Shown: positions 29,287 through 62,344 of the stretch, in pieces
Layout of the letters: every line of letters begins with the position of its first letter
How positions within the stretch are numbered: position 1 is the first letter of the stretch
Origin: an uncultured Pelagibacteraceae bacterium
GTDB taxonomy: Bacteria; Pseudomonadota; Alphaproteobacteria; Pelagibacterales; Pelagibacteraceae
DNA: 64,000 nt
Direction of reading: 5' to 3'
Assembly (NCBI GenBank): GCA_902570695.1
Contig: CACFZE010000001.1
Location: 186,001-250,000, forward strand
The notes under the pieces: generated by a model
Told to the model about the DNA's origin: nothing
Seen by the model: the letters and a program-made list of their open reading frames with translations, nothing else
Database searches by the model: none
Translations under genes and position numbers: made by a program

Positions 29287-29289
29287 TTT

Positions 29290-44556: not shown

Positions 44557-44566
44557 AATAAAAAAA

Positions 44567-44582
44567 GTTAAGAGAACTTAAC
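44567..44582 (-). terminator. Second small hairpin directly before tmoV
   Basis: Minus strand: GTTAAG, loop TTCT, CTTAAC, followed by seven T and then ATTATG, where ATG is the tmoV start. Six-bp AT-rich stem with U-tract; weak as a terminator, but its place over the tmoV start could also hide the start region. Confidence 0.5.
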
Positions 44583-44587
44583 ATAAA

Positions 44588-44630
44588 ATAAAAAAAAAAC
44601 GAACCGACTTAAGATTATGTCGGTTCGTTT
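44588..44630 (-). terminator. Strong rho-independent terminator after tmoX
   Basis: Minus strand: AAACGAACCGAC, a 10-base loop, GTCGGTTCGTTT and then a continuing T-run. The 12-bp stem is perfect. It begins 17 bases after the tmoX stop, so most transcripts should end here with partial read-through into tmoV and tmoW, giving an excess of binding protein. Confidence 0.92.
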
Positions 44631-44646
44631 CTAAATAGACTAAAAA

Positions 44647-45591: not shown

Positions 45592-45732
45592 TTATTTCTC
45601 CTCTCTTAATATATTAAGTATTTAATTATCCTTAAATTTAATCTTACAGTCAACAGAAGTTGGTACTAAAATTTATATATACAATTAATCAGTACTGATT
45701 TATTCTCAAACATAAGTAATCATTGATTTAAA
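45592..45732. promoter_or_regulatory. Divergent control region, tmoX / tdm
   Basis: 141 bases between the TMAO transporter and the TMAO demethylase. It holds the tmoX ribosome-binding site (GAGAGGAG, minus strand) and must hold both promoters. The perfect palindrome at 45687-45700 is the only conspicuous dyad. No ribosome-binding site is obvious in front of tdm. Confidence 0.6.
45687..45700. promoter_or_regulatory. 14-bp perfect palindrome, candidate operator
   Basis: AATCAGTACTGATT reads the same on both strands. It lies in the shared tmoX/tdm control region, 32 bases upstream of the tdm ATG, a normal place for an operator. The winged-helix protein encoded at 48072 is a nearby candidate binder, which is inference. 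Confidence 0.5.
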
Positions 45733-48072: not shown

Positions 48073-48422
48073 TGTCAAAATCATCAAAGGATTTACTTGA
48101 ATTTTGGGAAGATCAAATGAAACTATCCCATACATCCAGTAATTACTTTTTCAGAAAATCTCCTTCACATTATCACATGATGTTGATTGTGATGAATTCT
48201 TATAAATTAAATGAAAACTTATCTGTCGAAGAACTTAAGACTAGACTCTTTAAAACCTCAAGACCTAAATCTGCACTTATGATCAAGGAAGCTTGTGATA
48301 AAGAATTTTTTTACCTCGAGAAAACAGGAAATGACCATAGAAAAAAGTACGTTTTACCCACACAGAATTTTGTTAATGAATTTAACGAATATTTGAAAAC
48401 TCTCAAAAATTTAAGTTTTTAA
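48072..48422 (+). CDS. Winged-helix (MarR-like) DNA-binding protein
   Basis: A 116-residue protein with the order helix, helix, wing: ELKTRLFKTSRPKSALMIKE as the helix-turn-helix and DHRKKYVLPTQNFVNEFNEY as wing plus last helix. This is the pattern of MarR-like regulators in which the wing is followed by a dimer helix. It is coupled to tdm by TAATG, which makes it a candidate regulator of TMAO genes. The ligand and targets are unknown. The assignment rests on pattern, not on a family match. Confidence 0.6.
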   Translation: MSKSSKDLLEFWEDQMKLSHTSSNYFFRKSPSHYHMMLIVMNSYKLNENLSVEELKTRLFKTSRPKSALMIKEACDKEFFYLEKTGNDHRKKYVLPTQNFVNEFNEYLKTLKNLSF

Positions 48423-48511
48423 ATAAAATTCTCAGTAATATTTAGAATTTATATAAATTATATATAAAAATTATTATATTCTTTCCTCTGTTAAAAAATT
48501 AAAATTCGTTC

Positions 48512-49840
48512 ATGTCGTTACCGACAAAAGCAAAAGTAGTAATAATTGGTGGAGGAATTCACGGGTTAAGTACCGCTTGGAAACTTTCTGAAAAATATAA
48601 AAATCCAAACGATGTAGTTGTCCTAGAAAAGAAGGACACAGCCGCAGGTGCAAGCGGAATTGCATGTGGAGTTGTTAGAAATAATTATTTTCAACCAGCA
48701 ATGAGAGAATTAATGGCTCATTCAGTTAGTGTTTGGGAGAGTGATCCAGAGGCATTCAAATATAATGCTGTTGGTTATATGCAAATTTCTCCAGAAGTAA
48801 TGCATAAAGATGTTGCAAGTATCTACGAACAACAAAAAGCTATTGGATATGAGTCAGAATTTATAGAAGGTGAAAAAGATTGCATGAAATATATGCAAGG
48901 AATTTTTAGTGATTGGCAAGCAAAAGGTATTACTTCAGTTTTACATGAAAAAAAAGGTGGATACGCATTTAATAAAGACTCAATTAAAGCATTGGAAAAA
49001 AAAGCAAATTCAAACGGTGTAAATGTTCATAAAGGTGTGAAGGTTACAGGTTTCAAAAGAGGAAGTAACAGCAATGCAATTACTGGCGTGGTTACAGATA
49101 AAGGAACAATTGATTGTGATCAGGTAGTTATTGGAGCAGGACCATGGGTAAGAGATTTTTGGAACATGTTGGAGTTACCAAAAACGACAAACATAAAAGA
49201 TGCTAAAAATGGGAAAATGCATGAAGTTGAAATGTGGAAGTATTGGTTTTTACAAGAAGGTGTATTAGGTGTAGACGCAGACTATTTAAAAACAAATGAA
49301 GGTAAAGCACCTCCAGTAATCCATGTTGATACAGATGCTCCACTTTATTCTGATAAAGATGGTAAAATAATTACAGAAGACTTATGGGGTATTTATTATA
49401 AACCTGATATTGAGGGATTGGGAGTTCAAGGCGGAACATCACCCTATATTGTTCAAAAACATTTTGATGAAGTTAATGTTGATCCATATGGAATAGATTC
49501 TCCAGAATATCAAACTACCGATAAATTTTCTGACATGTGGACTTCAGCACTTGCACATATTCAGAAACGTTTTGTCGGTAAATCTCATTTGTATAGAAAA
49601 GGACCATCAGGAGGATTGGGTTGTTTAACTCCAGATTCATTCCCAATATTCGATAGATTTTTTGAAAATGTTTACATGATTGCAGATGCAAATCATGGTT
49701 ATAAAATGATAGGTGTTGGGCACCTTGTTGCGCAAGAAATTTTAGGTCAAGAAAGTGAATTATTAAAACCGTTCAGGTTCGATAGATATGAAAAAGGTAA
49801 ACTTCATCCGACATCGAACAGTCCGTTTCCTTGGAGCTAA
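48512..49840 (+). CDS. FAD-dependent oxidoreductase, sarcosine oxidase beta/DAO family
   Basis: A 442-residue DAO-fold flavoprotein: VVIIGGGIHGLSTAWKLSEKY near residue 10, GASGIACGVVRNNYFQPAMR, VVIGAGPWVRDFWN, and a C-terminal FAD loop YMIADANHGYKMIGVGHLVAQEIL. It has no GcvT domain and no partner soxA/D/G genes beside it, so it works as a single subunit or with the glutamate-synthase-like set that follows. Good candidate for oxidation of an N-methylated amine or amino acid made from TMAO. An 89-base leader precedes it. The substrate is unknown. Confidence 0.8.
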   Translation: MSLPTKAKVVIIGGGIHGLSTAWKLSEKYKNPNDVVVLEKKDTAAGASGIACGVVRNNYFQPAMRELMAHSVSVWESDPEAFKYNAVGYMQISPEVMHKDVASIYEQQKAIGYESEFIEGEKDCMKYMQGIFSDWQAKGITSVLHEKKGGYAFNKDSIKALEKKANSNGVNVHKGVKVTGFKRGSNSNAITGVVTDKGTIDCDQVVIGAGPWVRDFWNMLELPKTTNIKDAKNGKMHEVEMWKYWFLQEGVLGVDADYLKTNEGKAPPVIHVDTDAPLYSDKDGKIITEDLWGIYYKPDIEGLGVQGGTSPYIVQKHFDEVNVDPYGIDSPEYQTTDKFSDMWTSALAHIQKRFVGKSHLYRKGPSGGLGCLTPDSFPIFDRFFENVYMIADANHGYKMIGVGHLVAQEILGQESELLKPFRFDRYEKGKLHPTSNSPFPWS

Positions 49841-49865
49841 TTTATCTAAGTAGACAAACGTTTTT

Positions 49866-49891
49866 TTTTCAGTTACCTTTTGATCTGAAAA
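49866..49891 (+). promoter_or_regulatory. Hairpin upstream of the GS-like gene
   Basis: TTTTCAG (49866-49872) and CTGAAAA (49885-49891) can pair across a 12-base loop, just before the GGGGGAAG ribosome-binding site. Upstream is a run of nine T. It is too weak to call a terminator, but it could modulate the start. Confidence 0.3.
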
Positions 49892-49906
49892 TTCAAAGGG
49901 GGAAGA

Positions 49907-51376
49907 ATGACGGATCTTGAAAAACACGTAAACCAATCAGGTAGAGCTAAACTCGTCAAAAAAGTTAGAGAAAAAATAAACGAATTAGGAATTACTTATA
50001 TCTATTATCAATTTATTTCAGTAACTGGAAGAGTTGTTGGAAAAGGAATACCAGCAGATCACTGGGAAAGAACTGCAGAAAAAGGTTTTCAATTAGTTTA
50101 TGGAGCAACTGCAAATTTATTTTTAGATCGTCATAATAATTATATTGGCTACGGCCCGGAAGCTATGGAATTGGTAGGAATACCTGATCCAGAAACTTTT
50201 GTTCAGTTACCTTGGGATAAGAGAGTTGGAAGAGTTTTTGTTACGTGCTTTAGAAACAGAGAAGAAAGAAAAAATCCAGGTGGTCATTTAACAAGTGACT
50301 GCAGAGGTAATCTTAGAATTTTCATGAATGAATTCAAAAAGAAACATGGATTAGAATTAAGAGTTGGAACAGAGCCTGAAATGATGTGGTTAACAAAAAA
50401 TCCTGACGGAACTCCAACTGGACAAGGTTTCTCAAAACCGTTCTGTTATCATATTGATCAATTTGAATCTTTAAGACCTGTGTTTATGAAGGTTATTGAA
50501 TACGCAAAAGCGATGGGTCTTGATATGATTCAAGGTGACCATGAAGATGCTCCTGGTCAATTAGAACTTAACTGGACATTTGATAATGTTTTAAGAAACG
50601 CAGACAGACTATCTACATATCGACAAATTTGTGCTCAAGTAGCAAGAGAACACAATCTTATTGCTTGTTTCATGACCAAGCCATTTATGGGGGTTTCAGC
50701 GAGTGGATGTCACACAAACATGTCTTTATGGAAAGGTGGTAAAGTATCTGTAAATAAATTAGGTAACAAAAAACTTCCAGGTGTAGAAGAAGTCTTTAGC
50801 TATGTATCTGGTGGAACTAATACTTTCATGCCAGATACTAAAGATATGCAATTGCCTGGAAAAATTGGATTACAATCAATTGCAGGAATAATGAAACACT
50901 TGCCAGCTTTAACAGCAATTGGTTCTTCGACAGTGAACTCATATAGAAGATTATGGGATCAAGGTTTCTGGGCACCAGTATATGCTGACTGGGGTTATCA
51001 AAATAGAACTTGTGGTTTAAGAGTATCAGCTCCGGGTAGATTTGAGTACAGATCAGTTGATTCTATGCATAATCCATATTTATTAGGTGCAGCATTGCTT
51101 AAAGCTTGTGATGAGGGAATATCTAAAAAAATGAAACCAGCTAAACCAGAGTCTAGAAATATATATGAAGCTCAAAAAGCCGGTAAAGATGTTAAAAAAC
51201 TTCCACTAAGTTTAGGTGAGGCTTTAGATAGATTGGCGGAAGATGAAGTAATAAAATCATCAATGCCAGATGAAATGTATAAAGTATTTAATTGGTACAA
51301 ACGAGATGAGTGGGAAAAATTCCTTGGTGCAACAACACAATGGGATCTTGATACTTATTTAGATTGTTTACCGTAA
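49907..51376 (+). CDS. Divergent glutamine-synthetase-family enzyme (amt-linked)
   Basis: A 489-residue GS-fold enzyme. The beta-Grasp N-terminus reads GITYIYYQFISVTGRVVGKG, the metal/glutamate site VGTEPEMMWL (about 153-162) and GDHEDAPGQLELNW, and the C-terminal SAPGRFEYRSVDSMHNPYLL. It is longer than GmaS (441 here) and clearly different in the first third, with no PAQAIAEMQKNGAGFAGF region. It forms the head of an operon with three glutamate-synthase-like genes and an Amt transporter. Ligation of an amine to glutamate is likely; the amine (ammonia, methylamine, dimethylamine or other) is unknown. A good GGGGGAAG ribosome-binding site precedes the ATG. Confidence 0.8.
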   Translation: MTDLEKHVNQSGRAKLVKKVREKINELGITYIYYQFISVTGRVVGKGIPADHWERTAEKGFQLVYGATANLFLDRHNNYIGYGPEAMELVGIPDPETFVQLPWDKRVGRVFVTCFRNREERKNPGGHLTSDCRGNLRIFMNEFKKKHGLELRVGTEPEMMWLTKNPDGTPTGQGFSKPFCYHIDQFESLRPVFMKVIEYAKAMGLDMIQGDHEDAPGQLELNWTFDNVLRNADRLSTYRQICAQVAREHNLIACFMTKPFMGVSASGCHTNMSLWKGGKVSVNKLGNKKLPGVEEVFSYVSGGTNTFMPDTKDMQLPGKIGLQSIAGIMKHLPALTAIGSSTVNSYRRLWDQGFWAPVYADWGYQNRTCGLRVSAPGRFEYRSVDSMHNPYLLGAALLKACDEGISKKMKPAKPESRNIYEAQKAGKDVKKLPLSLGEALDRLAEDEVIKSSMPDEMYKVFNWYKRDEWEKFLGATTQWDLDTYLDCLP

Positions 51377-51387
51377 TAGGATAAAAT

Positions 51388-52329
51388 ATGTGTGGGATTG
51401 CAGGATTAATTCATAGAGGAAATACTTCAAACGTTGGTTTTGAACTTCAAGGTATGCTTCAAGCATTAAAGCATAGAGGAGAAGATTCAACTGGATACGC
51501 TTTATATGGAAAAACTGACGGTCAAAATTTTATCATGAGATTTAAAGTTGGAGAAAATGTCGGTGAAGGCAGCACTTCAGTCATGGAAGATGTCTCTGTA
51601 TATGATGAAAGAAAAAAAATAGTTGATGGATATTTATCTGATTTGGGAGCAAAGATAATTAAAGAGGAAAGAATACTTCCTTATTCGTTAAGATATGAAA
51701 TTGAGTACAATAAAGATCTTATGGAGTTTTCGCAAAAAATAGAAAGCGTGCCTGGTGTTGAAATTCTGTCAATGGGTAAGTCTTTAGAAGTAATTAAAGA
51801 TTTAGGAAATGCTGAAGCTGTATGCAAGAGATATAACCTTGATAAATTAGTTGGTACTCATGCAATTGGACATGCAAGAATGGCAACAGAGTCAGGCGTT
51901 GATATTAAGTCAGCCCATCCATTCTGGGGATATCCTTTCAGTGATGTATCTGTTGTTCATAACGGTCAATTAACTAATTATTGGAATAATAGAAGAGTAT
52001 TAGAGAATAAAGGAATGAGATTTATGTCAGAGTGTGACTCTGAATTAATTGCAGTTTATTTGGCTGAAAAAATGAGAAATGGAGCAACACTAGAAGAAGG
52101 AATGAAAGAGTCTTTAGCGGGCTTAGATGGAGTTTTCACTTACTTCGTTGCTACCAAAGACTCTTTGGGAATGGCTAAAGATACTATGGCTGCAAAACCA
52201 CTGGTATTATATGAGTCTGATGATCTTGTAGCTATGGGTTCTGAAGAAATAGCAATTAGATCAGTACTACCACAAGAAATAGAAACATATGATCCTTTTG
52301 ATGGAGAAGTTAAAGTATGGCAAATTTAA
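51388..52329 (+). CDS. Class II glutamine amidotransferase subunit, set 1
   Basis: A 313-residue Ntn-hydrolase of the GltB N-terminal type. Cys2 (MCGIAGLI) is the nucleophile, RGEDSTGYALYG follows, and HAIGHARMATES, HPFWGYPFSDVSVVHNGQLTNY and FMSECDSELIAVYL are the glutamine-site segments. It should cleave a gamma-glutamyl amide and pass the amine to the FMN subunit. It is 20 residues longer than the paralogue at 56951. Its end overlaps the GXGXG gene by 13 bases. Confidence 0.85.
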   Translation: MCGIAGLIHRGNTSNVGFELQGMLQALKHRGEDSTGYALYGKTDGQNFIMRFKVGENVGEGSTSVMEDVSVYDERKKIVDGYLSDLGAKIIKEERILPYSLRYEIEYNKDLMEFSQKIESVPGVEILSMGKSLEVIKDLGNAEAVCKRYNLDKLVGTHAIGHARMATESGVDIKSAHPFWGYPFSDVSVVHNGQLTNYWNNRRVLENKGMRFMSECDSELIAVYLAEKMRNGATLEEGMKESLAGLDGVFTYFVATKDSLGMAKDTMAAKPLVLYESDDLVAMGSEEIAIRSVLPQEIETYDPFDGEVKVWQI

Positions 52330-53171
52330 AAACTTCAGAAAAAAAAACTAAAGCACAATCAATGGGACTTCATTCAGAGGTCTTAACTGGAAAAACACAA
52401 CAAAAATTTTTTAATCCTGATGAAGCAGAAAATTTTTATTATTTTGGAACATATGATGTTGATTTCAACAAAAGAACAGAAATCGATGTAAAAAATATGG
52501 AATGCAGAGAAGCCAATAAAAAAATTGATGAATTAATGAAAGATGGATATGGAACAATAGTTATAAAAAATCCTCAAGGAAAACATAGTTTAGGTGTAGG
52601 AATTTTGAATAAATTAAATTTAATATTTGAGGGAAGTTTAGGTTATTTTGGATGTGGATCAATGGATGGTCCAATAGTTAGAATTAATGGTAGAGTTGGT
52701 TGGTCTTGTGCTGAAAATATGATGGCTGGCAAAGTTGTCATAGAAAAAAATGCGGGGTCTTGCTTTGGGGCAGCTATAAGAGGTGGCGATCTGATATGCA
52801 AAGGAAGCGTAGGTGCAAGAACTGGTATTGATCAAAAAGGTGGAACTATAATAGTTGGTGGAGATGCTGGTGCTTTTACAGGTTTTATGATGCAAAGAGG
52901 TAGAATAATAATCTTGGGTGACGTAGGTATAAACTTAGGAGACTCTATGTATGATGGGACAATTTTTGTAGGTGGAAAAATTGGATCATTTGGTAGTGAT
53001 GCTGTCGAAACTGAATTGACTGATTCAGATCAAGATTGGTTAAAAAGAAAATTAAAGGTTGCGGAGATCGGGGAAAACTTCGATGTTTCTAAAATGACCA
53101 AAGTTGTTGCAGGAAAAAAACTTTGGAATTACGATGCTCTTGAACCTACAGAGAAAAAAGGAGCAATTTAA
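52317..53171 (+). CDS. GXGXG-domain glutamate-synthase-like subunit, set 1
   Basis: A 284-residue protein consisting of a right-handed beta-helix with GXGXG repeats (VGWSCAENMMAGKVVIEKNAG, IVGGDAGAFTGFMMQRG), the GltB C-terminal domain made as a separate chain. It carries about 60 extra residues at the N-terminus compared with the set 2 copy (227 residues), including YYFGTYDVDFNKRTEIDVKN. Part of a three-subunit enzyme with the genes on either side. It overlaps the amidotransferase gene by 13 bases and ends directly at the FMN-subunit gene. Confidence 0.85.
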   Translation: MANLKTSEKKTKAQSMGLHSEVLTGKTQQKFFNPDEAENFYYFGTYDVDFNKRTEIDVKNMECREANKKIDELMKDGYGTIVIKNPQGKHSLGVGILNKLNLIFEGSLGYFGCGSMDGPIVRINGRVGWSCAENMMAGKVVIEKNAGSCFGAAIRGGDLICKGSVGARTGIDQKGGTIIVGGDAGAFTGFMMQRGRIIILGDVGINLGDSMYDGTIFVGGKIGSFGSDAVETELTDSDQDWLKRKLKVAEIGENFDVSKMTKVVAGKKLWNYDALEPTEKKGAI

Positions 53172-54563
53172 ATGGCAAAGAAAAAAAACGGTAATGGAAA
53201 GTCAAATGGTCATTCCAACGGAAATGGAGTAGCGTCTAGAAATAAAAGTTTGCTAGGACACAATGCAATCTTCACTCCTGAAGTAATGGATGACATCCAT
53301 ATTAAATCAGAATTAGGTAGATACAGAATGCGTGGTATGGCTTTGATGAAGAAAATACCAACTTTTGATGATCTAGTTTTCTTGCCAGGTACATTAACAA
53401 GATTTGTAATTGAAGGTTATAGAGAAAAATGTGAAACTAAAACTATCATTGGTCCAAGATGTGAAAATCCAATTGAACTTGATATACCAGTTTATATTAC
53501 TGGAATGAGTTTTGGAGCATTATCTTATGAGGCTAAAACAGCATTAGCGAGAGGTGCTACTATGGCTGGTAGTGCAACATGTTCTGGTGAAGGTGGAATG
53601 ATACCAGATGAAAGAAGATATTCAGAAAAATGGTTTTATCAGTGCATACAATCAAGATACGGTTTTAATCCACATCACGCACAACTAGCTGATGGAATTG
53701 AAGTTTTTATTGGACAAGGTCAAAAAGTTGGAATGGGAGGTCATTTAATGGGTCAAAAAGTTACTGACCAAGTTGCAGAAATGAGATCACTACCCGCAGG
53801 TATAGATCAAAGATCTCCAGCAAGACACCCAGATTGGTTAGGTCCAGATGATTTAGCTTTAAAAGTTCAAGAGCTTAGAGAATTAACAAAAAACAAAGTG
53901 CCAATTCAGTTAAAGCTTGGTGCAGCAAAAGTTTATGATGATGTTAGGATGGCAGCAAAATGTGATCCAGATTCAATTTATCTTGATGGAATGGAAGGTT
54001 CAACGGGTGCTGGACCACATATTGCAGCTGCTAATACAGGAATTCCAGGAATAGCAGGAATTAGAGAAGCTAGAAGAGCATTGGATGATGTTGGCAAAAC
54101 TGGAAAAGTAACTTTAATTTATGCAGGTGGTGTTAGAGATGGTGCAGACATGGCTAAAGCTTTAGCGCTTGGTGCAGACGCAATTGCAATTGGAACTGGC
54201 GCAATGGTGGCTTTGAATTGCAATAAAGAAATACCAGAGTCTAACTTTGAAAAAGAAATGGGTGTACCTGCAGGTCATTGCTATCACTGTCACACAGGTA
54301 GATGTCCGGTAGGAGTAGCTACTCAAGATCCTAAATTAAGAAAAAGATTAAATCCTGATGACGCAGCATTAAGAGTATACAATTATTTGCATGCAATGAC
54401 ATTAGAGGCTCAATTGTTGGCTAGAGCATGTGGAAAAACAAATATTCACTCGCTAGAACCAGAAGATATGGCTGCATTGACTATGGAGGCTTCTGCATTA
54501 GCTAAAGTACCACTTGCAGGAACAAATCATACAGTAGGAGTTAAAGATTTCCATAAAATCTAA
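53172..54563 (+). CDS. FMN-binding glutamate-synthase-like subunit, set 1, with Fe-S cysteines
   Basis: A 463-residue TIM-barrel FMN enzyme of the GltB central-domain family. Motifs: VYITGMSFGALSYEAKTALARG, GEGGMIPDE, RSPARHPDWLGPDDLALKV, IQLKLGAAKVYDD, DGMEGSTGAGPHIAA, YAGGVRDGADMAKALALGAD. The Fe-S cluster motif is present with C370, C373 and C378 (CYHCHTGRCPVGVATQ), as in bacterial glutamate synthase. The N-terminus has a low-complexity Lys/Asn/Gly tail (KKKNGNGKSNGHSNGNG). It should make an N-substituted glutamate or glutamate from 2-oxoglutarate. It differs from the set 2 copy at the cluster motif. Confidence 0.87.
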   Translation: MAKKKNGNGKSNGHSNGNGVASRNKSLLGHNAIFTPEVMDDIHIKSELGRYRMRGMALMKKIPTFDDLVFLPGTLTRFVIEGYREKCETKTIIGPRCENPIELDIPVYITGMSFGALSYEAKTALARGATMAGSATCSGEGGMIPDERRYSEKWFYQCIQSRYGFNPHHAQLADGIEVFIGQGQKVGMGGHLMGQKVTDQVAEMRSLPAGIDQRSPARHPDWLGPDDLALKVQELRELTKNKVPIQLKLGAAKVYDDVRMAAKCDPDSIYLDGMEGSTGAGPHIAAANTGIPGIAGIREARRALDDVGKTGKVTLIYAGGVRDGADMAKALALGADAIAIGTGAMVALNCNKEIPESNFEKEMGVPAGHCYHCHTGRCPVGVATQDPKLRKRLNPDDAALRVYNYLHAMTLEAQLLARACGKTNIHSLEPEDMAALTMEASALAKVPLAGTNHTVGVKDFHKI

Positions 54564-54571
54564 TAGCAAAT

Positions 54572-54982
54572 ATGCCAAAGAAAAAAGGTAAGAAAAAAGT
54601 CAAATCGAAAGAGATCAAAGGTCAATTAGGTAAGAAAAAAGAGACTGCTAGAGAAAAAATGATTGGCCAAACAATTGGCTATCGATATGACGTAAATCTT
54701 TTGCCTGACTATAGTCGACTAACTCCATTTTTAAAAAAATATATAGAAGCTATGGGTTGGGACGATCTTAATTGGTTAGAAGATGTTCATATGGGTTATG
54801 AAGAAAATAGACCTGCTGTTTTTGATAGAAATGCTAATGGTTGGGTAACGATACCAAGTAAAATAAAATTACCTAATAATCAGCAGGATAGAGATATGAT
54901 AGCTAGAGAATTATTAGTAAAGTTTCAAATGTCGCCGAATCATCCGTTGGTTGATCTTAAAAAAGCATATTTAAAATTCTAA
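54572..54982 (+). CDS. Lysine-rich hypothetical protein (136 residues)
   Basis: The first 30 residues are almost purely basic (MPKKKGKKKVKSKEIKGQL), followed by a folded-looking part with TIGYRYDVNLLPDYSRLTPFL, MGWDDLNWLEDVHMGYEEN and ARELLVKFQMSPNHP. I do not recognise a family. It is 8 bases after the FMN-subunit gene and in the same operon, so it may be a fourth subunit or a regulator of set 1. Set 2 has no counterpart. Confidence 0.65.
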   Translation: MPKKKGKKKVKSKEIKGQLGKKKETAREKMIGQTIGYRYDVNLLPDYSRLTPFLKKYIEAMGWDDLNWLEDVHMGYEENRPAVFDRNANGWVTIPSKIKLPNNQQDRDMIARELLVKFQMSPNHPLVDLKKAYLKF

Positions 54983-55099
54983 TTTTCAATTTCAAGTTGA
55001 TAAAATAATTATTAACTTCTACTTTTTATAAATAAATTAAAATTGTCAGCATAAAAAAAATTTCATAGAGTCAATCAACTATTAATAGGAGAGAGAAAT
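54983..55099 (+). promoter_or_regulatory. Leader of the amt gene
   Basis: 117 bases without a gene, with an AGGAGAGAG ribosome-binding site 6-14 bases before the ATG. TTGATAAAATAATTATTAAC and TTTTTATAAATAAATT could hold a promoter, but the spacing is not standard. No hairpin seen. Confidence 0.35.
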
Positions 55100-56500
55100 A
55101 TGACTGATCAATTAGGTGCTCTCACATCGATATTTACAGAATTTTACTATTGGGTAACTGTGGTTCTTATGTTTTTGATCCACGTAGGTTTCTGTATGTA
55201 CGAAGTTGGGGCATCTCGTTACAAACATCACCAACATACTCTTATGAAAAATACAATGCTGATACCTCTGGTAACAGTTACATGGTTTTTCTTTGGTTGG
55301 TGGATATACTGGGCATTTCCAACAGGACCCGGATTAGCTCCTTCGATTATGACCGAAAGTACTGGTCTAGTTCTTGGAGGTGGATTTGGTGGAAATGATC
55401 TTGCTAACCCTACAAATGCATTGATGGCAGTAAATCTGAATGATCATATAATGGGTGTCTTCTGGGCAGCCTTCTTATTATTTTCATGGACTGCAGCCTC
55501 AATTGTATCTGGGGCTGTTATTGAAAGGATAACTACTTTTGCATTTGGGATACTTGCAATTGCAATTGGATCTGTTTTCTGGACAATAGATGCTTCATGG
55601 GGATGGCATTTTGATGGATGGATGTTAAAAATATTAGGATATCACGATGCTTATGCTTCTGGAGTAATTCACGCAATTGCTGGGGGTTTTGCTTTAGGTG
55701 TTCTAATTGTTTTAGGACCAAGAATTGGAAAATTTTCATCTAGCGGAGAACCAAGAAACATTGGACCAAGAAATCCTTGGTTAGTGACAGTTGGATTATT
55801 TTTAATCTATACTGGTTTTTGGGGTTTTTACGCAGCATGTAATGTGCCAATATATGATCTTGGACCAGAGTATGGTATGGAAGGTGTAACTTTCTTTACT
55901 GCAACTAACATCTACCTGACGCCTACAACACTCAGTGGAATAACGATGAACTTTTTAATGTCGTTGTCTGGAGGTTTGTTGGCTGGATATGTAATATCAA
56001 AGGGAGATCCTTTCTGGACTTATTCATCAGGACTTGCGGGTATAATATGTGCATCTGCAGGAAATGATTTATATCATCCAATACAATCAATGATAATCGG
56101 TATGATCGGAGTGGTTATAGCTTACAAAATGCATTACTGGGTCGAGAAAAAATATAAAATCGACGATGCAGTTGGAGCAGTAGCTGTTCATGGTTACGCT
56201 GGATTTGTTGGTCTTGTAATATGTGGTTTTGTTTTAAATGGTTATCCTTCATCTGGATACAGTGTTGGAGCTATGTGGGACGGAACTAATTATGCAGCAA
56301 TTAATCCACTAGGAATGTTTATCGGAGCAATAATAATGTTTTTTGTTTTAGGTATGCTTCCTGGATATATAATTGCAAAAGTTCTCAATGGAATGGGTAA
56401 ATTAAGAATACCTAGAGAAGTAGAGCTTGCAGGACTTGACTATACAATAATGGAGGAGGCTAAAGAAGACGAAAAAGCTGTAGCCTCGGCCAGTAGATAA
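55100..56500 (+). CDS. Ammonium/methylammonium transporter (Amt/MEP family)
   Basis: A 466-residue channel with 11 or more membrane segments. The twin-histidine pore is present: H191 (SGVIHAIAGG) and H364 (VAVHGYAG). Other marks are MYEVGASRYKH, SWTAASIVSGAVIERITTF and WTIDASWGWHFDGWM. The sequence differs much from AmtB, for example at NNxxAA-type segments, so it may favour an alkylated amine. It is placed after the GS/GltB-like set 1, in line with supplying amines to it. I recall similar Amt genes next to GS/GltS-like clusters under nitrogen control in mycobacteria and SAR11. Confidence 0.9.
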   Translation: MTDQLGALTSIFTEFYYWVTVVLMFLIHVGFCMYEVGASRYKHHQHTLMKNTMLIPLVTVTWFFFGWWIYWAFPTGPGLAPSIMTESTGLVLGGGFGGNDLANPTNALMAVNLNDHIMGVFWAAFLLFSWTAASIVSGAVIERITTFAFGILAIAIGSVFWTIDASWGWHFDGWMLKILGYHDAYASGVIHAIAGGFALGVLIVLGPRIGKFSSSGEPRNIGPRNPWLVTVGLFLIYTGFWGFYAACNVPIYDLGPEYGMEGVTFFTATNIYLTPTTLSGITMNFLMSLSGGLLAGYVISKGDPFWTYSSGLAGIICASAGNDLYHPIQSMIIGMIGVVIAYKMHYWVEKKYKIDDAVGAVAVHGYAGFVGLVICGFVLNGYPSSGYSVGAMWDGTNYAAINPLGMFIGAIIMFFVLGMLPGYIIAKVLNGMGKLRIPREVELAGLDYTIMEEAKEDEKAVASASR

Positions 56501-56513
56501 AGGAGGTATGTAA

Positions 56514-56735
56514 ATGGCAACAGTAACAAATTGGATAGATCATTTAAGTGCCTCTGAGGTACAAGGATCTGTCTATCCAGGAGTTGGTTCAGAAGGAGTG
56601 CTTGTAATAATAGCAATTCTTATTTGGGTTGGTTGGCATGTAATTTCATCTAAACAAGAAGATGGGAAGATGAATGAGATTGTCAGAAAAAGACCTAGTT
56701 CTAACGACTGGAAGAGTAATATAACAGACGGTTAA
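56514..56735 (+). CDS. Small single-helix membrane protein (73 residues), Amt operon
   Basis: 73 residues with one membrane helix (LVIIAILIWVGWHVI, about 29-43). N-terminal part MATVTNWIDHLSASEVQG, C-terminal charged part KQEDGKMNEIVRKRPSSNDW. An excellent AAAGGAGG ribosome-binding site precedes the ATG. It is 13 bases after amt and just ahead of a strong terminator, so it is the last gene of the amt transcript. It may be a small partner of Amt. No family recognised. Confidence 0.75.
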   Translation: MATVTNWIDHLSASEVQGSVYPGVGSEGVLVIIAILIWVGWHVISSKQEDGKMNEIVRKRPSSNDWKSNITDG

Positions 56736-56742
56736 AACTTTG

Positions 56743-56776
56743 AAGAGGGCACATGAAATATTGTGCCCTCTTTTTT
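56743..56776 (+). terminator. Rho-independent terminator ending the amt operon
   Basis: AAGAGGGCACA, an 8-base loop, TGTGCCCTCTT and a T-run. Perfect 11-bp GC-rich stem followed by T bases. It separates set 1/amt from the second set. Confidence 0.93.
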
Positions 56777-56779
56777 CAA

Positions 56780-56941
56780 ATGGAAAATTCAGAAAATAAA
56801 AATCAAGACGAAAATAGAACTCCTAGTAAAATGGCAAGACTTGCTTGGCCAAAAGCTAAGTATGGTGTCTATGCCGCAATCATCATTATTGTATTAGTAA
56901 ATCTCCTTTACTATAAAGATTTTTTGTTATCTTTAATTTAA
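56780..56941 (+). CDS. Small membrane protein (53 residues)
   Basis: MENSENKNQDENRTPSKM followed by WPKAKYGVYAAIIIIVLVNLLYY and KDFLLSLI: a charged N-terminus and one helix. I rejected the ATG at 56753 because it lies inside the terminator stem. It follows the terminator by 3 bases, so it heads the next transcript or is read through. It stands directly before mgsA (9 bases). Unknown function; a tail-anchored peptide is likely. Confidence 0.55.
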   Translation: MENSENKNQDENRTPSKMARLAWPKAKYGVYAAIIIIVLVNLLYYKDFLLSLI

Positions 56942-56950
56942 TTAATTTTT

Positions 56951-57832
56951 ATGTGTGGAATTGTTGGAATATACCTAAAATCAAAAAAGTTTGAAAAAGA
57001 TTTAGGTAAAATGTTATCTGGAATGTTGATAAATATGGAGTCCAGAGGACCTGATAGCGCTGGTTTTGCTATTTATAAGAAAGAAAAAAAAGAGGAAATT
57101 AAATATTCAATATGTATTAACAATTTAGCTTTCGAAAAATTTAAGAAAGGAATCACAGGAAAAATTAAATTTACTAAAATATTAAAAAACTCAGACCACG
57201 TAATTTTAAGCTCCAAAGAAAAACCAAAAAAAGTTTTGGATATTTTAAATGAATTTAAGGGAGTTTCCTTGGTTGGTTATGGTAAATCTATTGAAATATT
57301 TAAGCAAATCGGAAATCCTAAAGATGTAGTAAAAAAGTTTAATTTAGAAAACTTTAGTGGAACACATGGAATAGGTCATACTAGAATGGCTACTGAAAGT
57401 GCTATAACAACTGATGGATCTCATCCCTACTCTACAGGCTCTGATGAATGCCTGGTCCATAATGGATCTTTATCAAATCACAATAACCTAAGGAGAGATT
57501 TAACTAAAAAAGGGATAAATTTTAAATCTGAAAACGATACTGAGGTAGCAGCAGGATATATTTCAAATCATTTATCAAGTAAAAAAAATTTAAAAGAGAC
57601 TCTTATGAGTGGCTTGGGTGACTTAGATGGATTTTACACTTTTATAACAGGCACAAGAAAAGGATTTGCTATAGTTAGAGATGAAATTGCATGCAAACCT
57701 GCTGTTGTTGCTGAAACTAAAGACTATGTTGCAATCGCATCTGAATTTCAAGCAATGGCACATTTGCCTAATGTTAACATGGCTAAAATTTTTGAGCCTG
57801 AACCTGGTATTGTATATTCTTGGGGCAATTAA
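56951..57832 (+). CDS. mgsA: N-methylglutamate synthase subunit A (class II amidotransferase)
   Basis: A 293-residue Ntn-type amidotransferase with Cys2 nucleophile (MCGIVGIYL) and RGPDSAGFAIY, HGIGHTRMATESAITTDGSHP, CLVHNGSLSNHNNLRR, SENDTEVAAGYI. In the N-methylglutamate pathway this subunit takes gamma-glutamylmethylamide and passes methylamine to the FMN subunit. Length matches MgsA (about 290-300). Its stop overlaps the mgsB start by one base (TAATG at 57832). The gmaS at 59881 makes its substrate. Confidence 0.87.
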   Translation: MCGIVGIYLKSKKFEKDLGKMLSGMLINMESRGPDSAGFAIYKKEKKEEIKYSICINNLAFEKFKKGITGKIKFTKILKNSDHVILSSKEKPKKVLDILNEFKGVSLVGYGKSIEIFKQIGNPKDVVKKFNLENFSGTHGIGHTRMATESAITTDGSHPYSTGSDECLVHNGSLSNHNNLRRDLTKKGINFKSENDTEVAAGYISNHLSSKKNLKETLMSGLGDLDGFYTFITGTRKGFAIVRDEIACKPAVVAETKDYVAIASEFQAMAHLPNVNMAKIFEPEPGIVYSWGN

Positions 57833-58515
57833 TGAAATTAGATTTGAGAAAATTGAAACTTAGAAAAGTAAATGAGACATTGCAAACTGTAGATCCAAAA
57901 AGAAATAATAAAAATTATACAATTTTAAATCCAGAGGGAAATCATGCTATCTGCGCAGGTTTGACGGATGACATAGATGTGACTGTAAAAGGTCATGTTG
58001 GATATTATTGCGGTGGAATGAACCAAAACGCAAATATAACAGTTGAAGGAAATGTTGGAACGGGCGTAGCTGAAAACATGATGTCTGGTAAAATTCACGT
58101 AAAAGGAAACGCCTCTCAGTCTGCTGGAGCTACGGCACATGGAGGATTTTTAGTAATTGATGGAGATGCAAGTTCCAGATGTGGAATTTCAATGAAAGGA
58201 ATTGATATTGTTGTCAAAGGTTCTGTAGGTCACATGTCAGCTTTTATGGCACAGTCTGGTAATTTAGTAGTTTGTGGTGACGCGGGTGAGGCATTAGGTG
58301 ATAGTTTATATGAAACAGATATCTATATTAAAGGTAGGGTCAAGTCTTTAGGAGCTGATTGCGTAGAAAAAAAAATGGATAATAAACATTTAAAAAAATT
58401 AGATAAACTTTTAAAAAAAGCGAAGTTAGATAAATTAAAATCTAAAGATTTTAAAAGATATGGTTCAGCAAGAAAACTTTATAATTTTAAAATAGACAAT
58501 GTATCAAATTATTAA
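57832..58515 (+). CDS. mgsB: N-methylglutamate synthase subunit B (GXGXG)
   Basis: A 227-residue GXGXG beta-helix protein (NVGTGVAENMMSGKIHVKGNA, VVCGDAGEALGDSLYETDIY), equivalent to the C-terminal domain of glutamate synthase. I chose the ATG at 57832 with its TAATG overlap; a TTG at 57820 would add four residues. The C-terminus is Lys-rich. Same order A-B-C as in known mgs operons. Confidence 0.87.
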   Translation: MKLDLRKLKLRKVNETLQTVDPKRNNKNYTILNPEGNHAICAGLTDDIDVTVKGHVGYYCGGMNQNANITVEGNVGTGVAENMMSGKIHVKGNASQSAGATAHGGFLVIDGDASSRCGISMKGIDIVVKGSVGHMSAFMAQSGNLVVCGDAGEALGDSLYETDIYIKGRVKSLGADCVEKKMDNKHLKKLDKLLKKAKLDKLKSKDFKRYGSARKLYNFKIDNVSNY

Positions 58516-58517
58516 AT

Positions 58518-59843
58518 ATGAAAAAAAATAATAAGACATTTCCAAGACAATCTTGGACTTTCGACGAGTATACAAATTCTGAAATAAGAAGAGCAGCTGA
58601 AACAGGAATTTATGATATAAGAGGAGGTGGATCTAAAAGAAGACTTCCTCATTTTGATGATCTTTTATTTTTAGGTGCATCAATGTCCAGATATCCTTTG
58701 GAGGGCTATCGAGAAAAATGCACGACTAATGTAACCTTGGGAACGAGGTATGCAAAAAAACCTTTAGAACTTGATATACCAATAACAATTGCGGGAATGA
58801 GTTTTGGCGCATTATCTGGATCTGCTAAAGAAGCATTGGGTAGAGGAGCTAGTATTGCAGGTACATCAACAACAACAGGTGATGGAGGTATGACACCTGA
58901 AGAAAGAGGACAATCAAAAAATTTAGTTTACCAACTTTTACCTTCTCGATATGGAATGAATCCTAATGATTTAAGAAAAGCAGATGCAATAGAAGTTGTT
59001 ATTGGACAAGGTGCAAAGCCTGGTGGAGGTGGAATGCTTCTAGGTCAAAAAATTAGTGATCGTGTTGCAGAAATGAGAACTTTACCAAAAGGAGTTGATC
59101 AACGTTCTGCATGCAGACATCCAGACTGGACTGGACCTGATGATTTGAAGATCAAAATATTGGAATTAAGAGAAATTACTAAGTGGAAAGTCCCAATATT
59201 TGTGAAAATTGCGGGAGCAAGACCTTATTATGATACCGCATTAGCAATTAAAGCTGGTGCAGATGTAGTTGTTTTAGATGGTATGCAAGGAGGAACTGCA
59301 GCGACACAAGAAGTATTTATTGAAAATGTAGGTCAACCAACATTAGGATGTATAAGACCAGCCGTTGATGCTCTACAAGATCTAGATATGCATAGAAAAG
59401 TTCAATTAATTATTTCTGGTGGGATCAGAAATGGAGCAGATGTAGCTAAAGCTTTGGCCCTTGGAGCCGATGCAGTTTCAATAGGTAGTGCAGCAATGAT
59501 TGCTATCGGAGATAATGATCCTAAATGGGAAAAAGATTACAATAAACTTGGAACTACTGCTGGCGCATACGATGATTGGCATGAAGGAAATGATCCCGCA
59601 GGTATTTCAACCCAAGATCCAAAATTAATGAAAAGATTAGATCCAATGAAAGCTGGAAAAAAACTTTCAAACTATTTAAAGGTAATGACATTAGAAGCTC
59701 AAACACTTGCAAGAGCATGTGGTAAAAATAGCTTACATAATTTAGAACCAGAGGATATGTGTGCTTTAACAGTTGAAGCTGCCGCGATGGCTAGAGTTCC
59801 TTTAGCTGGTACTACGTGGATACCAGGTATAAATAACAAATAA
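58518..59843 (+). CDS. mgsC: N-methylglutamate synthase subunit C (FMN), Fe-S cysteines absent
   Basis: A 441-residue FMN TIM-barrel subunit. Shared motifs are ITIAGMSFGALSGSAKEALGRG, GDGGMTPEERG, MLLGQKISDRVAEMRTLPKGV, RSACRHPDWTGPDD, VVVLDGMQGGTAATQ, and VEAAAMARVPLAGTTWIPG. The three Fe-S cysteines of glutamate synthase are replaced by Y351, W354 and D359 (AYDDWHEGNDPAG). I recall the same AYDDWHEG stretch in alphaproteobacterial MgsC-like proteins, so this is probably normal for the group. Two bases after mgsB. Confidence 0.88.
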   Translation: MKKNNKTFPRQSWTFDEYTNSEIRRAAETGIYDIRGGGSKRRLPHFDDLLFLGASMSRYPLEGYREKCTTNVTLGTRYAKKPLELDIPITIAGMSFGALSGSAKEALGRGASIAGTSTTTGDGGMTPEERGQSKNLVYQLLPSRYGMNPNDLRKADAIEVVIGQGAKPGGGGMLLGQKISDRVAEMRTLPKGVDQRSACRHPDWTGPDDLKIKILELREITKWKVPIFVKIAGARPYYDTALAIKAGADVVVLDGMQGGTAATQEVFIENVGQPTLGCIRPAVDALQDLDMHRKVQLIISGGIRNGADVAKALALGADAVSIGSAAMIAIGDNDPKWEKDYNKLGTTAGAYDDWHEGNDPAGISTQDPKLMKRLDPMKAGKKLSNYLKVMTLEAQTLARACGKNSLHNLEPEDMCALTVEAAAMARVPLAGTTWIPGINNK

Positions 59844-59880
59844 ATATTGATACTAAGTAATTTAACTCATATTATAGATA

Positions 59881-61206
59881 ATGCCTAAAAATTTATCTCA
59901 AATAGCTAGATCTAAAAAAATTAAATATTTTTTAATCAGTTTTGTTGATTTGTTTGGAGTATTGAGATCAAAATTAGTTCCAGCACAAGCAATTGCTGAA
60001 ATGCAAAAAAATGGAGCAGGTTTTGCAGGATTTGCAACATGGCTAGATATGTCACCTGCAGATAGTGACATGTTCGCAATACCAGATCCAAATAGTTTAA
60101 TTCAATTACCATGGAATAAAGAGATTGGTTGGTTAGCTTCAGATTTATATATGGATGGTGGACCTGTAGATGCATCTCCAAGAGTAATGTTGAAAAATCA
60201 GATAAAAAAATTAAGTGAAAAAAAACTTCAAATGAAGTCTGGTGTTGAGTGTGAATATTTTTTAATTTCTGAGGATGGTTCGTCTATTGCAGATCCTAGA
60301 GATATCCAATCAAAACCTTGTTATGATCAATCAGCTCTCATGAGAAGATATGATTTAATTAAAGAGATATGTGACAGCATGATTGAGTTAGGATGGAAAC
60401 CATATCAAAATGACCATGAAGATGCTAATGGCCAATTTGAAATGAATTGGGATTATTCTGACAGTTTAATAACTGCAGATAGGCATGTTTTTTTCAAATT
60501 TATGGTAAAAAATTTAGCTGAAAAACATGGTCTTAGAGCTACATTTATGCCAAAACCATTCAATAATCTAACTGGTAATGGTTGCCATGCGCATGTTTCT
60601 GTTTGGGGGAAAGGAAAAAATCAATTTTTAGACAAAAAAGATAGATTGGGTTTAAGCAAAATGGCTTACAATTTCCTAGGCGGGGTTATAAGGAATGCTC
60701 AACCTCTATCAGCTTTCTTTAATCCGACTATTAACAGTTACAGAAGAATAAATGCTCCACCAACAAAATCAGGAGCTACTTGGTCTCCTAGCAGCATATC
60801 TTATACAGGAAATAATAGAACACATATGATTAGAATTCCCGACCCAGGAAGATTTGAACTTAGATTAATGGATGGATCAGCTAATCCATATTTATTACAA
60901 GCTGGAGTTCTTGCAGCTGGTTTGGAAGGTATAAATAAAAAAATAAATCCAGGTAAACCTTTATTCTGCAATATGTATACAGATTATAAAAAATACCCAA
61001 ACTTGCCTAAACTTCCTAATAACGTTTCTGAGGCATTAAATATGTTAAGTGGTAGCAAAGTCCTTAATAAAGCATTTGGAAAAAAAGTTATTGATAGTTA
61101 TATAAAATTAAAAAGTAACGAAATAGATAATTTCAATAAACAAGAAGTCTTTGATAAGAAAAAATCAGTTACTAAATGGGAAAAAGATAACACCTTAGAT
61201 TGTTAG
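59881..61206 (+). CDS. gmaS: Gamma-glutamylmethylamide synthetase
   Basis: ATP-dependent ligation of methylamine to glutamate. The 441 residues match the GmaS pattern as I recall it: YFLISFVDLFGVLRSKLVPA, AIAEMQKNGAGFAGFATWLD, GVECEYFLIS (about 121), KPYQNDHEDANGQFEMNW, ATFMPKPFNNLTGNGCHAHV and IPDPGRFELRLMDGSANPYLLQ. It follows mgsC by 37 bases. It is quite different from the GS-like protein at 49907, so the two ligases probably use different amines. Confidence 0.9.
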   Translation: MPKNLSQIARSKKIKYFLISFVDLFGVLRSKLVPAQAIAEMQKNGAGFAGFATWLDMSPADSDMFAIPDPNSLIQLPWNKEIGWLASDLYMDGGPVDASPRVMLKNQIKKLSEKKLQMKSGVECEYFLISEDGSSIADPRDIQSKPCYDQSALMRRYDLIKEICDSMIELGWKPYQNDHEDANGQFEMNWDYSDSLITADRHVFFKFMVKNLAEKHGLRATFMPKPFNNLTGNGCHAHVSVWGKGKNQFLDKKDRLGLSKMAYNFLGGVIRNAQPLSAFFNPTINSYRRINAPPTKSGATWSPSSISYTGNNRTHMIRIPDPGRFELRLMDGSANPYLLQAGVLAAGLEGINKKINPGKPLFCNMYTDYKKYPNLPKLPNNVSEALNMLSGSKVLNKAFGKKVIDSYIKLKSNEIDNFNKQEVFDKKKSVTKWEKDNTLDC

Positions 61207-61208
61207 AA

Positions 61209-62339
61209 ATGAGTTTAAATAATATTTCTAAATGGAAATATTCTAATTTTCTAATTAATAAATCTTATAACTTTGATCGTAAAAGAATTCTAAAACTTAT
61301 ACCTTCTAACTTGCTATTGAATTCAAATAAAACTATTTCGAACTGGAAAAATTACAAGAAAACACCTCTATTAAAATTAGAAAAACTAAACCGAAATTTA
61401 AAACTTAATAATATTTTTTACAAAGATGAGTCAAAAAGATTTCATTTAAAATCATTTAAAGCTTTAGGTGGAGCATATGCTGTAGAAAAAATATCTAAAG
61501 GGAAAAAAAATATTATAATATCATCTGCAACAGCTGGAAATCATGGTAGATCAGTTGCTTGGGGCGCTCAAAGATTGGGTCTGCAATGTAAAATTTTTGT
61601 TAGTCAATATGTAAGTGAAACTAGAGTAAAAGAAATTAAAAAATTTGGAGCTGATGTAATTAGAGTTAGAGGTAACTACGAAAATTCATTAAATGAATGT
61701 AAAAAATTATCAAAAAAGAATAATTGGATTATTGTTCAAGATGTATCTACTAAGAATTATAGTCATGTCCCCTTGTTAACTATGGCTGGATATTCAATTA
61801 TGATTAAAGAAATTTCAAAACAAACTACCCATTATATTACACATATATTCCTTCAAGCTGGCGTTGGTGGAATGGCAGCAGGTGTAGTAGCAGGAGTAGC
61901 AAAATATTTTAAGAGAATTCCTAAAATAATAATAGTTGAGCCGGATGGAGCTGATTGCGTACTGCAAAGCATAAAAAGTAAAAAATTAAAAAAAATTAAA
62001 ATAAAAAAAGAAAGTATAATGGGCGGAATGTCATGTAATGAAATGTCTTTAATACCTTGGCATGTATTAAAGAAAGCTAGCGATTGTTGTGTTACTGTAA
62101 ATGACTCAAAAGTTCCTAAAACTGTTGCAATGCTAAAAGACAAGAAACTTAGTAAAAGAACAATAGTAGGTGGTGAATGTGCTACACCAGGAATTATCAG
62201 TCTTGTTAGTCTCTGTAATAATCCTAAAACAAAGAAATTAATAAATCTTAACGAAAAATCTAATGTTTTAGTTATTGGATGCGAAGGTAATGCAGATGTA
62301 AAACTTTACAAACAATTGCTATCTAAAGGCAGAAAGTAA
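61209..62339 (+). CDS. Diaminopropionate ammonia-lyase-like PLP enzyme
   Basis: A 376-residue fold-type II PLP enzyme: YKDESKRFHLKSFKALGGAYA (PLP Lys in SFKALGG), ATAGNHGRSVAWGAQRLG, FGADVIRVRGNYENSLNECK, FLQAGVGGMAAGVVAGVA, and GGECATPGIISLVSLC. This is the diaminopropionate ammonia-lyase (DpaL) pattern, which cleaves 2,3-diaminopropionate or related amino acids to pyruvate and ammonia. I chose the ATG at 61209, 2 bases after gmaS; a TTG at 61200 is possible. Why it stands with methylamine genes is not clear. Confidence 0.82.
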   Translation: MSLNNISKWKYSNFLINKSYNFDRKRILKLIPSNLLLNSNKTISNWKNYKKTPLLKLEKLNRNLKLNNIFYKDESKRFHLKSFKALGGAYAVEKISKGKKNIIISSATAGNHGRSVAWGAQRLGLQCKIFVSQYVSETRVKEIKKFGADVIRVRGNYENSLNECKKLSKKNNWIIVQDVSTKNYSHVPLLTMAGYSIMIKEISKQTTHYITHIFLQAGVGGMAAGVVAGVAKYFKRIPKIIIVEPDGADCVLQSIKSKKLKKIKIKKESIMGGMSCNEMSLIPWHVLKKASDCCVTVNDSKVPKTVAMLKDKKLSKRTIVGGECATPGIISLVSLCNNPKTKKLINLNEKSNVLVIGCEGNADVKLYKQLLSKGRK

Positions 62340-62344
62340 ATTAT

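Follow-up and report, generated by a model that had tools for sequence, protein, structure and literature searches.

The window analysed here, a stretch of 64,000 nucleotides from an uncultured Pelagibacteraceae bacterium of the SAR11 group (contig CACFZE010000001.1 of assembly GCA_902570695.1, a genome of 1.30 Mb that is 97% complete), carries a six-gene cassette at 48512-54982 encoding an FAD oxidase, a ligase of the glutamine synthetase (GS) fold at 49907 (LIG1), the three chains GlxB1, GlxC1 and GlxD1, and a 136-residue protein (P136). The cassette lies between tdm and amt-mgsABC-gmaS, with all genes of these sets on the + strand. LIG1 and GlxBCD1, together called set 1, appear to form a dimethylamine branch of the N-methylglutamate pathway, a reading that we hold with somewhat better than even confidence on the basis of distribution, genomic context and conserved residues. 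Across Alphaproteobacteria the cassette tracks Tdm, which forms dimethylamine from trimethylamine N-oxide (TMAO), and avoids a marker of Dmm, the dimethylamine monooxygenase.

The original prediction, made from the letters of the window alone, had pointed to two sets of GS plus glutamate-synthase-like genes; its genes, coordinates, sizes and motifs were all confirmed (ligases of 489 against 441 residues, GXGXG chains of 284 against 227, and an intact Fe-S motif in set 1). The genes on which the argument turns are the following.

45733-48072 (+): tdm, TMAO demethylase, product dimethylamine; NF053776 at 1102.4 bits, just over the curated cut-off of 1100
48512-49840 (+): FAD oxidase of the DAO fold; PF01266 at 122.9 bits; proposed N,N-dimethylglutamate (and/or N-methylglutamate) demethylase
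49907-51376 (+): LIG1, 489 aa; PF00120 (Gln-synt_C); proposed gamma-glutamyl-dimethylamide synthetase
51388-52329 (+): GlxB1, 313 aa, class II glutamine amidotransferase (GATase) chain with N-terminal Cys; GATase_6/7
52317-53171 (+): GlxC1, GXGXG chain, 284 aa; PF01493
53172-54563 (+): GlxD1, FMN chain, 463 aa; PF01645 at 303.6 bits; proposed N-methyl/N,N-dimethylglutamate synthase core
54572-54982 (+): P136, linked to GlxD1, perhaps a small subunit
56951-59843 (+): mgsABC, N-methylglutamate synthase chains; MgsA 56951-57832, MgsB 57832-58515, MgsC 58518-59843
59881-61206 (+): gmaS, gamma-glutamylmethylamide synthetase, 441 aa; TIGR03105 at 626 bits, cut-off 469.6

Distribution with Tdm and the Dmm marker

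LIG1 was searched for in 386 alphaproteobacterial genomes at E <= 1e-60, and 38 matched. Forty stretches were fetched around ligase matches, several of them cut by contig ends; 34 hold LIG1 proper and 6 a paralogous clade. Two genomes with the paralogue only (G395 and G497; G numbers denote genomes, G000 being the window's own, and L numbers fetched loci) were dropped, leaving 36 cassette genomes. The 34 loci represent 18 families, the window's own not among them. Of these loci 33 hold GlxB1, 33 GlxC1 and 33 GlxD1, while P136 is encoded in 30 and the FAD enzyme in 26; LIG1-GlxB-GlxC-GlxD stand together in loci of 17 other families, and the FAD gene joins them in 13. This recurrence of the LIG1-GlxBCD set is far above chance, and the FAD oxidoreductase, at first described as stand-alone, belongs to the cassette. 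Median pairwise identity is 0.84 for GlxD1, 0.74 for LIG1, 0.72 for P136 and 0.67 for the FAD enzyme. When LIG1 was compared with plasmids, 250 records matched, all below 60% identity, and none was counted as a cassette ligase.

With NF053776 at E <= 1e-150, 34 of the 386 genomes are Tdm-positive. Cassette and Tdm occur together in 27 genomes, the cassette alone in nine, Tdm alone in seven and neither in 343 (p = 1.7e-27); by family code, 13 families have both, six the cassette only and five Tdm only (p = 5e-11, taking the highest code seen, 159, as the number of families). As the Dmm marker we used PF11927, an HODM-fold part of Dmm, counted over 100 bits and serving as a proxy only. It was found in 52 genomes, three of them with weak matches of 51-59 bits (G176, G462, G388). 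Over 100 bits, it occurs in none of the 36 cassette genomes and in 49 of the 350 others (p = 0.008). Among Tdm-positive genomes the counts are 0/27 with the cassette against 5/7 without (p = 8e-5), or 2/27 against 6/7 when weak matches are included (p = 1.4e-4), and by family 0/13 against 4/5 (p = 0.002). Of the Pelagibacteraceae with set 1 the scan covered G000 and G003; it gave no match in the window's own genome, in agreement with the original remark that no dimethylamine monooxygenase was visible.

A Tdm over the curated cut-off is present in 29 genomes, of which 24 carry the cassette, four carry dmm genes and one, G388, with tdm at a contig end, is undecided. The dmm genes were read in the loci of the four Tdm-positive, cassette-free genomes: in G412, G383 and G437 they share a stretch with tmm or tdm, and in G296 they lie on a separate contig, the small DmmA-family chain being detected only in G437 and G296. 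The Tdm-like genes of G168 and G460 fall under the cut-off, and the PF11927 protein of G168, on another contig, was counted by the search match alone. An MgsC ortholog occurs in 48 genomes, as a fragment in one and scoring over 640 bits in the other 47. Of these genomes 17 have Tdm, and 12 of them carry the cassette, against 4 of the 31 that lack Tdm (p = 9e-5); of the 17 with PF11927 none carries it, against 16 of the 31 that lack the marker (p = 2e-4). The occurrence of set 1 in many genomes devoid of methylamine genes had been named as a pattern telling against a role in their metabolism; just 2 of the 36 cassette genomes (G227 and G328) lack Tdm, Tmm, GmaS and MgsC together.

Within 148 Pelagibacteraceae, split and partial genes included, tdm and LIG1 are both present in 51 and both missing from 94, tdm alone occurs in one and LIG1 alone in two, and a contig edge falls right at that place in all three discordant genomes. 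Such near-perfect agreement between adjacent SAR11 genes could also arise if the cassette merely accompanied tdm through a shared genomic island. In other families, however, the two co-occur despite different contigs or large distances (G179, G300, G312, G390, G418), and we consider hitch-hiking very improbable. Two SAR11 genomes with GmaS and without set 1 (G092 and G009) were left unused as evidence that set 1 follows Tdm, since their stretches stop at contig ends.

The genomic context agrees with the counts. In 12 of the 34 cassette loci, from five families, the stretch also holds tdm, tmm, a TMAO permease or tmoX, and in G176 the gene set leading from trimethylamine to glutamate occupies 26.5 kb (GmaS, P136, GlxDCB1, LIG1, FAD enzyme, MgsCBA, SoxA, Tmm and Tdm). 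A GntR/FCD gene accompanies 20 of the 34 loci. The available part of one study reports that TmoR, a GntR regulator of Ruegeria pomeroyi, responds chiefly to dimethylamine (PMC13390433), orthology to the cassette GntR genes not being implied.

Ligase, synthase and FAD enzyme

Judged from its sequence, LIG1 is no ordinary glutamine synthetase. It scores 294.5 bits against TIGR03105, under the GmaS cut-off of 469.6, and 215 bits against a cut-off of 650 for PuuA, the gamma-glutamylputrescine synthetase, likewise a GS-fold amine ligase. In the ligase tree, a quick IQ-TREE run with 14 weak forks and several long branches, its 18 rows form one clade (SH-aLRT 99) and 11 GmaS rows another (100); LIG1 lies outside the GmaS clade and apart from GlnA, so that the grouping with ordinary glutamine synthetases envisaged as a counter-argument in the original prediction was not found. 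The seven amine-pocket residues of GmaS (K30', Y147, Q175, D177, E179, E186 and N188), with roles as given in the available part of the RhGmaS structure paper (PMC7948447), are all kept and, together with R312 and the flap Trp, are present in 18/18 aligned LIG1 rows. The place of D177 is taken by His in GlnA and by Val in Escherichia coli PuuA, and that of the flap Trp by Tyr in E. coli PuuA.

The change in the acids that mark ammonia-type glutamine synthetases bears on nitrogen scavenging, which the original prediction had put forward as the plain alternative. LIG1 would then act as a glutamine synthetase of high affinity, paired with GlxBCD1 as a small glutamate synthase, and ammonia would enter via Amt, as the Amt neighbour, the GS and glutamate synthase folds and the kept Fe-S motif of GlxD1 would allow. 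Yet the Asp50' site holds Val or Tyr and no acid in the rows inspected by eye, the Glu-flap Glu is replaced by Trp in 18/18 rows, LIG1 stands apart from GlnA in the tree, the window genome holds its own ordinary GlnA and GltB, and the distribution follows Tdm. Scavenging is now disfavoured, to the point of being hardly credible.

Weak activity of a GmaS with dimethylamine has been recorded in the available part of PMC7948447, with a Km of 16 mM and a kcat of 2.6 per second against a methylamine Km of 27 uM; the kcat with trimethylamine was similar to that with dimethylamine. The latter similarity suggests that the assay may report phosphate release and not the amide formed. The N-methylglutamate pathway (GmaS, MgsABC and MgdABCD) resembles set 1 in combining a GS-fold ligase with GATase, GXGXG and FMN chains and in its amine pocket, whereas set 1 has separate LIG1 and GlxD1 clades, an extra FAD enzyme and P136, a ligase under the TIGR03105 cut-off, and a cassette that follows Tdm among MgsC-positive genomes. 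The rhizobial glxBCD-glnT cluster of R. johnstonii pRL11 consists of the same kinds of genes as set 1; its GlnT, however, belongs to the GmaS clade and is 32% identical to LIG1, and the cluster adjoins genes annotated as dimethylamine monooxygenase.

GlxBCD1 is probably an N-alkylglutamate synthase, as the occurrence of GmaS without a detected MgsC, described below, suggests. It has the three-chain make-up of MgsABC, with GATase, GXGXG and FMN chains. The MCGIAG start of GlxB1 is conserved in at least 95% of a 34-row alignment. In the FMN-chain tree, 12 GlxD1 rows (95) and nine MgsC rows (100) form separate clades, GlxD1 lying outside that of MgsC; the two phylogenies proposed at the outset, of ligases and of FMN subunits, both set the set 1 protein apart. 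In the window, GlxD1 has the complete Cys motif CYHCHTGRCPVG and MgsC has lost it; over all rows inspected, 32/32 of GlxD1 keep it against 3/9 of MgsC (L046, L055, L202). The six MgsC rows without the Fe-S cysteines (DDWHEGxDPxG) are those of the window (58518-59843), L047, L173, L174, L184 and L185; N-methylglutamate formation by amine exchange may require no electrons from outside.

GmaS is present in 29 of the 36 cassette genomes, and in 13 of the 29 an MgsC ortholog was undetected. For SAR11, the best 80 LIG1 matches, all of them SAR11, were taken with flanks of 8 kb: gmaS follows set 1 without mgsC in 58 loci, mgsC is present in six, and 16 end too early to hold either. Stretches with mgsABC end before gmaS, and the informative count is 58 of 64 without mgsC, which overturns the original picture of mgsABC-gmaS as the standard and set 1 as the extra. 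LIG1 and a gmaS-like match share one contig in 48 Pelagibacteraceae, at short spacing in 35 and long spacing in 13; L207 and L208, of short spacing and read directly, have no mgsABC at that place, and an MgsC search of the whole single-contig genome G003 found none. In SAR11, set 1 thus seems to be the common arrangement and mgsABC is often absent, the window genome belonging to a smaller group with both. In the many SAR11 that have GmaS and no mgsC, GlxBCD1 probably works with GmaS as well, barring a further synthase.

It could be asked, then, whether set 1 is simply a second methylamine pathway, with LIG1 as a methylamine ligase, GlxBCD1 as an alternative N-methylglutamate synthase and the TMAO link due to methylated-amine specialists. 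LIG1 has the fold and the amine pocket of GmaS, GlxBCD1 seems to stand in for MgsABC in the 13 GmaS-positive genomes just mentioned, and in the seven cassette genomes without GmaS it is LIG1 that could be the methylamine ligase. On this reading, however, LIG1 would duplicate the GmaS present in 29 of the 36 cassette genomes, and 13 Tdm-positive families would have no known enzyme for dimethylamine. Neither the avoidance of the Dmm marker (0/36 against 49/350) nor the way the cassette follows Tdm among MgsC-positive genomes is accounted for, and we regard this reading as unlikely.

Among solved structures, the best relatives of the FAD enzyme are heterotetrameric sarcosine oxidase beta subunits of the DAO family, with dimethylglycine oxidases lower down. 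It scores far below the cut-offs of the soxB model (82.8 bits, cut-off 529) and of monomeric sarcosine oxidase TIGR01377 (41 bits, cut-off 479.65), despite the published label of SAR11_1304. Sarcosine and dimethylglycine oxidases strip methyl groups from N-methylated amino acids, and such relatives fit a conversion of N,N-dimethylglutamate to N-methylglutamate by the FAD enzyme. Of 35 cassette genomes tested, 32 have an ortholog, as does one of five Tdm-positive, cassette-free genomes. Away from the cassette, the gene lies beside SoxBDAG-type genes (L200, L201, L203) or amt and gmaS (L199); at L205, on contig C23 of G296, the ortholog (61%) has no recognised methylamine gene beside it.

P136 was described originally as a lysine-rich protein tied to set 1. 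The link holds, with 30 of 34 loci; the lysine-rich part is a variable N-terminus, and it is the rest that is conserved. P136 gave no Pfam and no plasmid match, and a PDB match at E 0.036 was taken as chance. AlphaFold2 (AF2) models of P136 (29 SAR11 sequences) and of the FAD enzyme (28 sequences) reached a mean predicted local distance difference test score (pLDDT) of 41.7 and 37.7, too poor for a fold search. A family of open reading frames of about 196 aa without a Pfam match, possibly shadow frames, lies near the P136 gene in 15 of 34 loci.

Related ligases occur in other settings. The paralogous clade (L079-L084, L175) is 53-64% identical to LIG1, and in most cases its neighbours encode a further GS-like protein and ABC transporters; in Ruegeria a P450 and a 2Fe-2S protein are alongside, and another amine is its likely substrate. 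A third set, again of GlxBCD and a GS-like protein, lies in L179-L182, where three of the four stretches also carry ABC transporter ATPase genes. The existence of related ligase/Glx sets, probably for other amines and many with ABC transporters, and the nine cassette genomes without Tdm and Tmm would agree with set 1 handling, by the same chemistry, some other secondary or N-methylated amine, for instance an N-methylated ethanolamine or a diamine. The sole clearly recurring transporter beside the cassette is, however, the Amt channel, present in 10 of 34 loci and well matched to a small amine. This, together with a distribution that tracks Tdm and avoids the Dmm marker, makes such a substrate improbable.

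Neighbouring genes and published SAR11 data

From 45733 onwards the order is tdm, a 116-residue protein, the FAD gene, LIG1, GlxB1, GlxC1, GlxD1, P136, amt, two small membrane proteins, mgsABC and gmaS, with spacers short or negative except for 117 bases upstream of amt. An Rfam scan of 45000-63000 gave no match at E 0.1. The remaining features are listed here.

25449-30546 (-): SoxB/A/G-type operon, probable N-methylglutamate dehydrogenase (mgd); soxB and soxA over cut-off, soxG below
41523-45591 (-): tmoXWV-like TMAO ABC transporter, putative; permease 41523-43550, ATPase 43528-44556, binding protein 44647-45591
48072-48422 (+): 116-aa protein between tdm and the FAD gene; no family over cut-off
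55100-56500 (+): Amt-family channel; PF00909 at 175 bits
56514-56735 (+): 73-aa membrane protein, accompanies amt
56753-56941 (+): 62-aa membrane protein; no family matched

The delta chain of the SoxB/A/G-type operon was not located within the window; a SoxA ortholog (71-72% identity) adjoins mgsABC in L046/L047. The binding protein of the transporter matches ProX/choline-binding models below cut-off, and the label TmoXWV, putative here, is borrowed from the HTCC1062 literature (PMC8918994, available part). The 116-residue protein is present in 76 of the 80 SAR11 loci, and the 73-residue protein stands beside Amt1 in L199-L201 and other loci. MgsB of the window has 227 aa counted from its ATG. 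The window's GmaS scores 579 bits against structure 7cql, a PDB entry titled type III glutamate--ammonia ligase, which we take to be RhGmaS of the GmaS structure paper. At 61200-62339, overlapping gmaS at its end, lies a gene for a diaminopropionate ammonia-lyase (NF006058 over cut-off), which keeps this position in L207, L208 and L210.

The gene order in strain HTCC1062 is apparently the same, with the FAD enzyme as SAR11_1304, the ligase as 1305, a hypothetical protein as 1309, amt as 1310 and glxBCD as 1313-1315, an order pieced together from the available parts of three papers (PMC3160333, PMC2704228, PMC5069961) and not from the sequence of the strain. The first of these, in its accessible portion, labels SAR11_1304 as monomeric sarcosine oxidase and puts SAR11_1313-1315 forward as a candidate N-methylglutamate synthase. 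Both tmoX and the ortholog of the 49907 ligase were about fivefold down in sulfur-limited stationary HTCC1062, among 15 genes listed in the available part of PMC5069961, a weak indication that was not used as evidence. Weak growth of the strain on TMAO as sole nitrogen has been described, a Dmm isoenzyme being supposed (PMC8918994).

Proposed dimethylamine route and its implications

The original prediction had offered, as a testable idea, that dimethylamine or another amine might pass through set 1 by a gamma-glutamyl route. For dimethylamine this idea gains support from the shared occurrence with Tdm, from the avoidance of the Dmm marker, and from genomic context and active-site residues. 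We infer the substrate, every intermediate and the roles of the FAD enzyme and P136 from these same sources. Tdm converts TMAO to dimethylamine, which LIG1 would join to glutamate in an ATP-dependent reaction, by the GmaS mechanism, to give gamma-glutamyl-dimethylamide. GlxB1 would free the amine inside the GlxBCD1 complex, of which P136 may be a subunit, and the FMN of GlxD1 would put it on 2-oxoglutarate, with electrons arriving via the Fe-S cluster, to form N,N-dimethylglutamate. The FAD enzyme (48512) would then take off one methyl group, leaving N-methylglutamate, and a SoxBDAG-type dehydrogenase the second, leaving glutamate and one-carbon units. Where mgsABC is absent, GlxBCD1 would probably serve GmaS for methylamine as well. 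Set 1 would thereby fill the same gap after Tdm as DmmDABC, known from Ruegeria pomeroyi and Methylocella (PMC5520151, available part). The cassette includes no Dmm subunit, and Dmm yields free methylamine whereas set 1 would use glutamyl intermediates. No glutamyl route for dimethylamine, via dimethylglutamate or gamma-glutamyldimethylamide, was found in the literature searched, most subscription journals lying outside it.

Several observations weigh against the dimethylamine route or limit its reach. Genomes of one family are not independent, so that the genome-level p values are inflated and the family counts are safer. At most four candidates per genome were scored in the LIG1 and MgsC searches and two in that for Tdm, and some absences may be misses; dimethylamine dehydrogenase lay outside the survey. 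G460 has a Tdm-like gene without set 1 and without PF11927. Both Tdm and Tmm are missing from nine of the 36 cassette genomes, so that TMAO need not be the source of the amine. D177 and the flap Trp are also present in the paralogous ligase clade of the other setting (7/7 rows), so these residues mark an alkylamine-type ligase and not dimethylamine itself. The FAD enzyme is missing from three of the 35 cassette genomes (G214, G218, G491) and has an ortholog in the dmm genome G296. In the SAR11 genome G092 its gene directly precedes mgsABC-gmaS, with set 1 absent and tdm possibly beyond the contig end, and the enzyme is therefore no exclusive companion of set 1.

Few groups in the ocean are as abundant as SAR11, whose dimethylamine step after Tdm lacked known enzymes. 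The available part of PMC5520151 reports dmmDABC absent from all SAR11 representatives and no evidence of dimethylamine oxidation by SAR11, and it describes this gap as a metabolic bottleneck, owing to which the amine may escape to the air and form aerosol. We see an even chance that SAR11 and at least 12 other alphaproteobacterial families use dimethylamine without Dmm, by an undescribed glutamyl route encoded by FADox-LIG1-GlxBCD-P136. If so, the bottleneck supposed for dimethylamine in the surface ocean would be closed by set 1. Should set 1 be the missing step, a question open since 2017, the picture of marine methylated amines would change.

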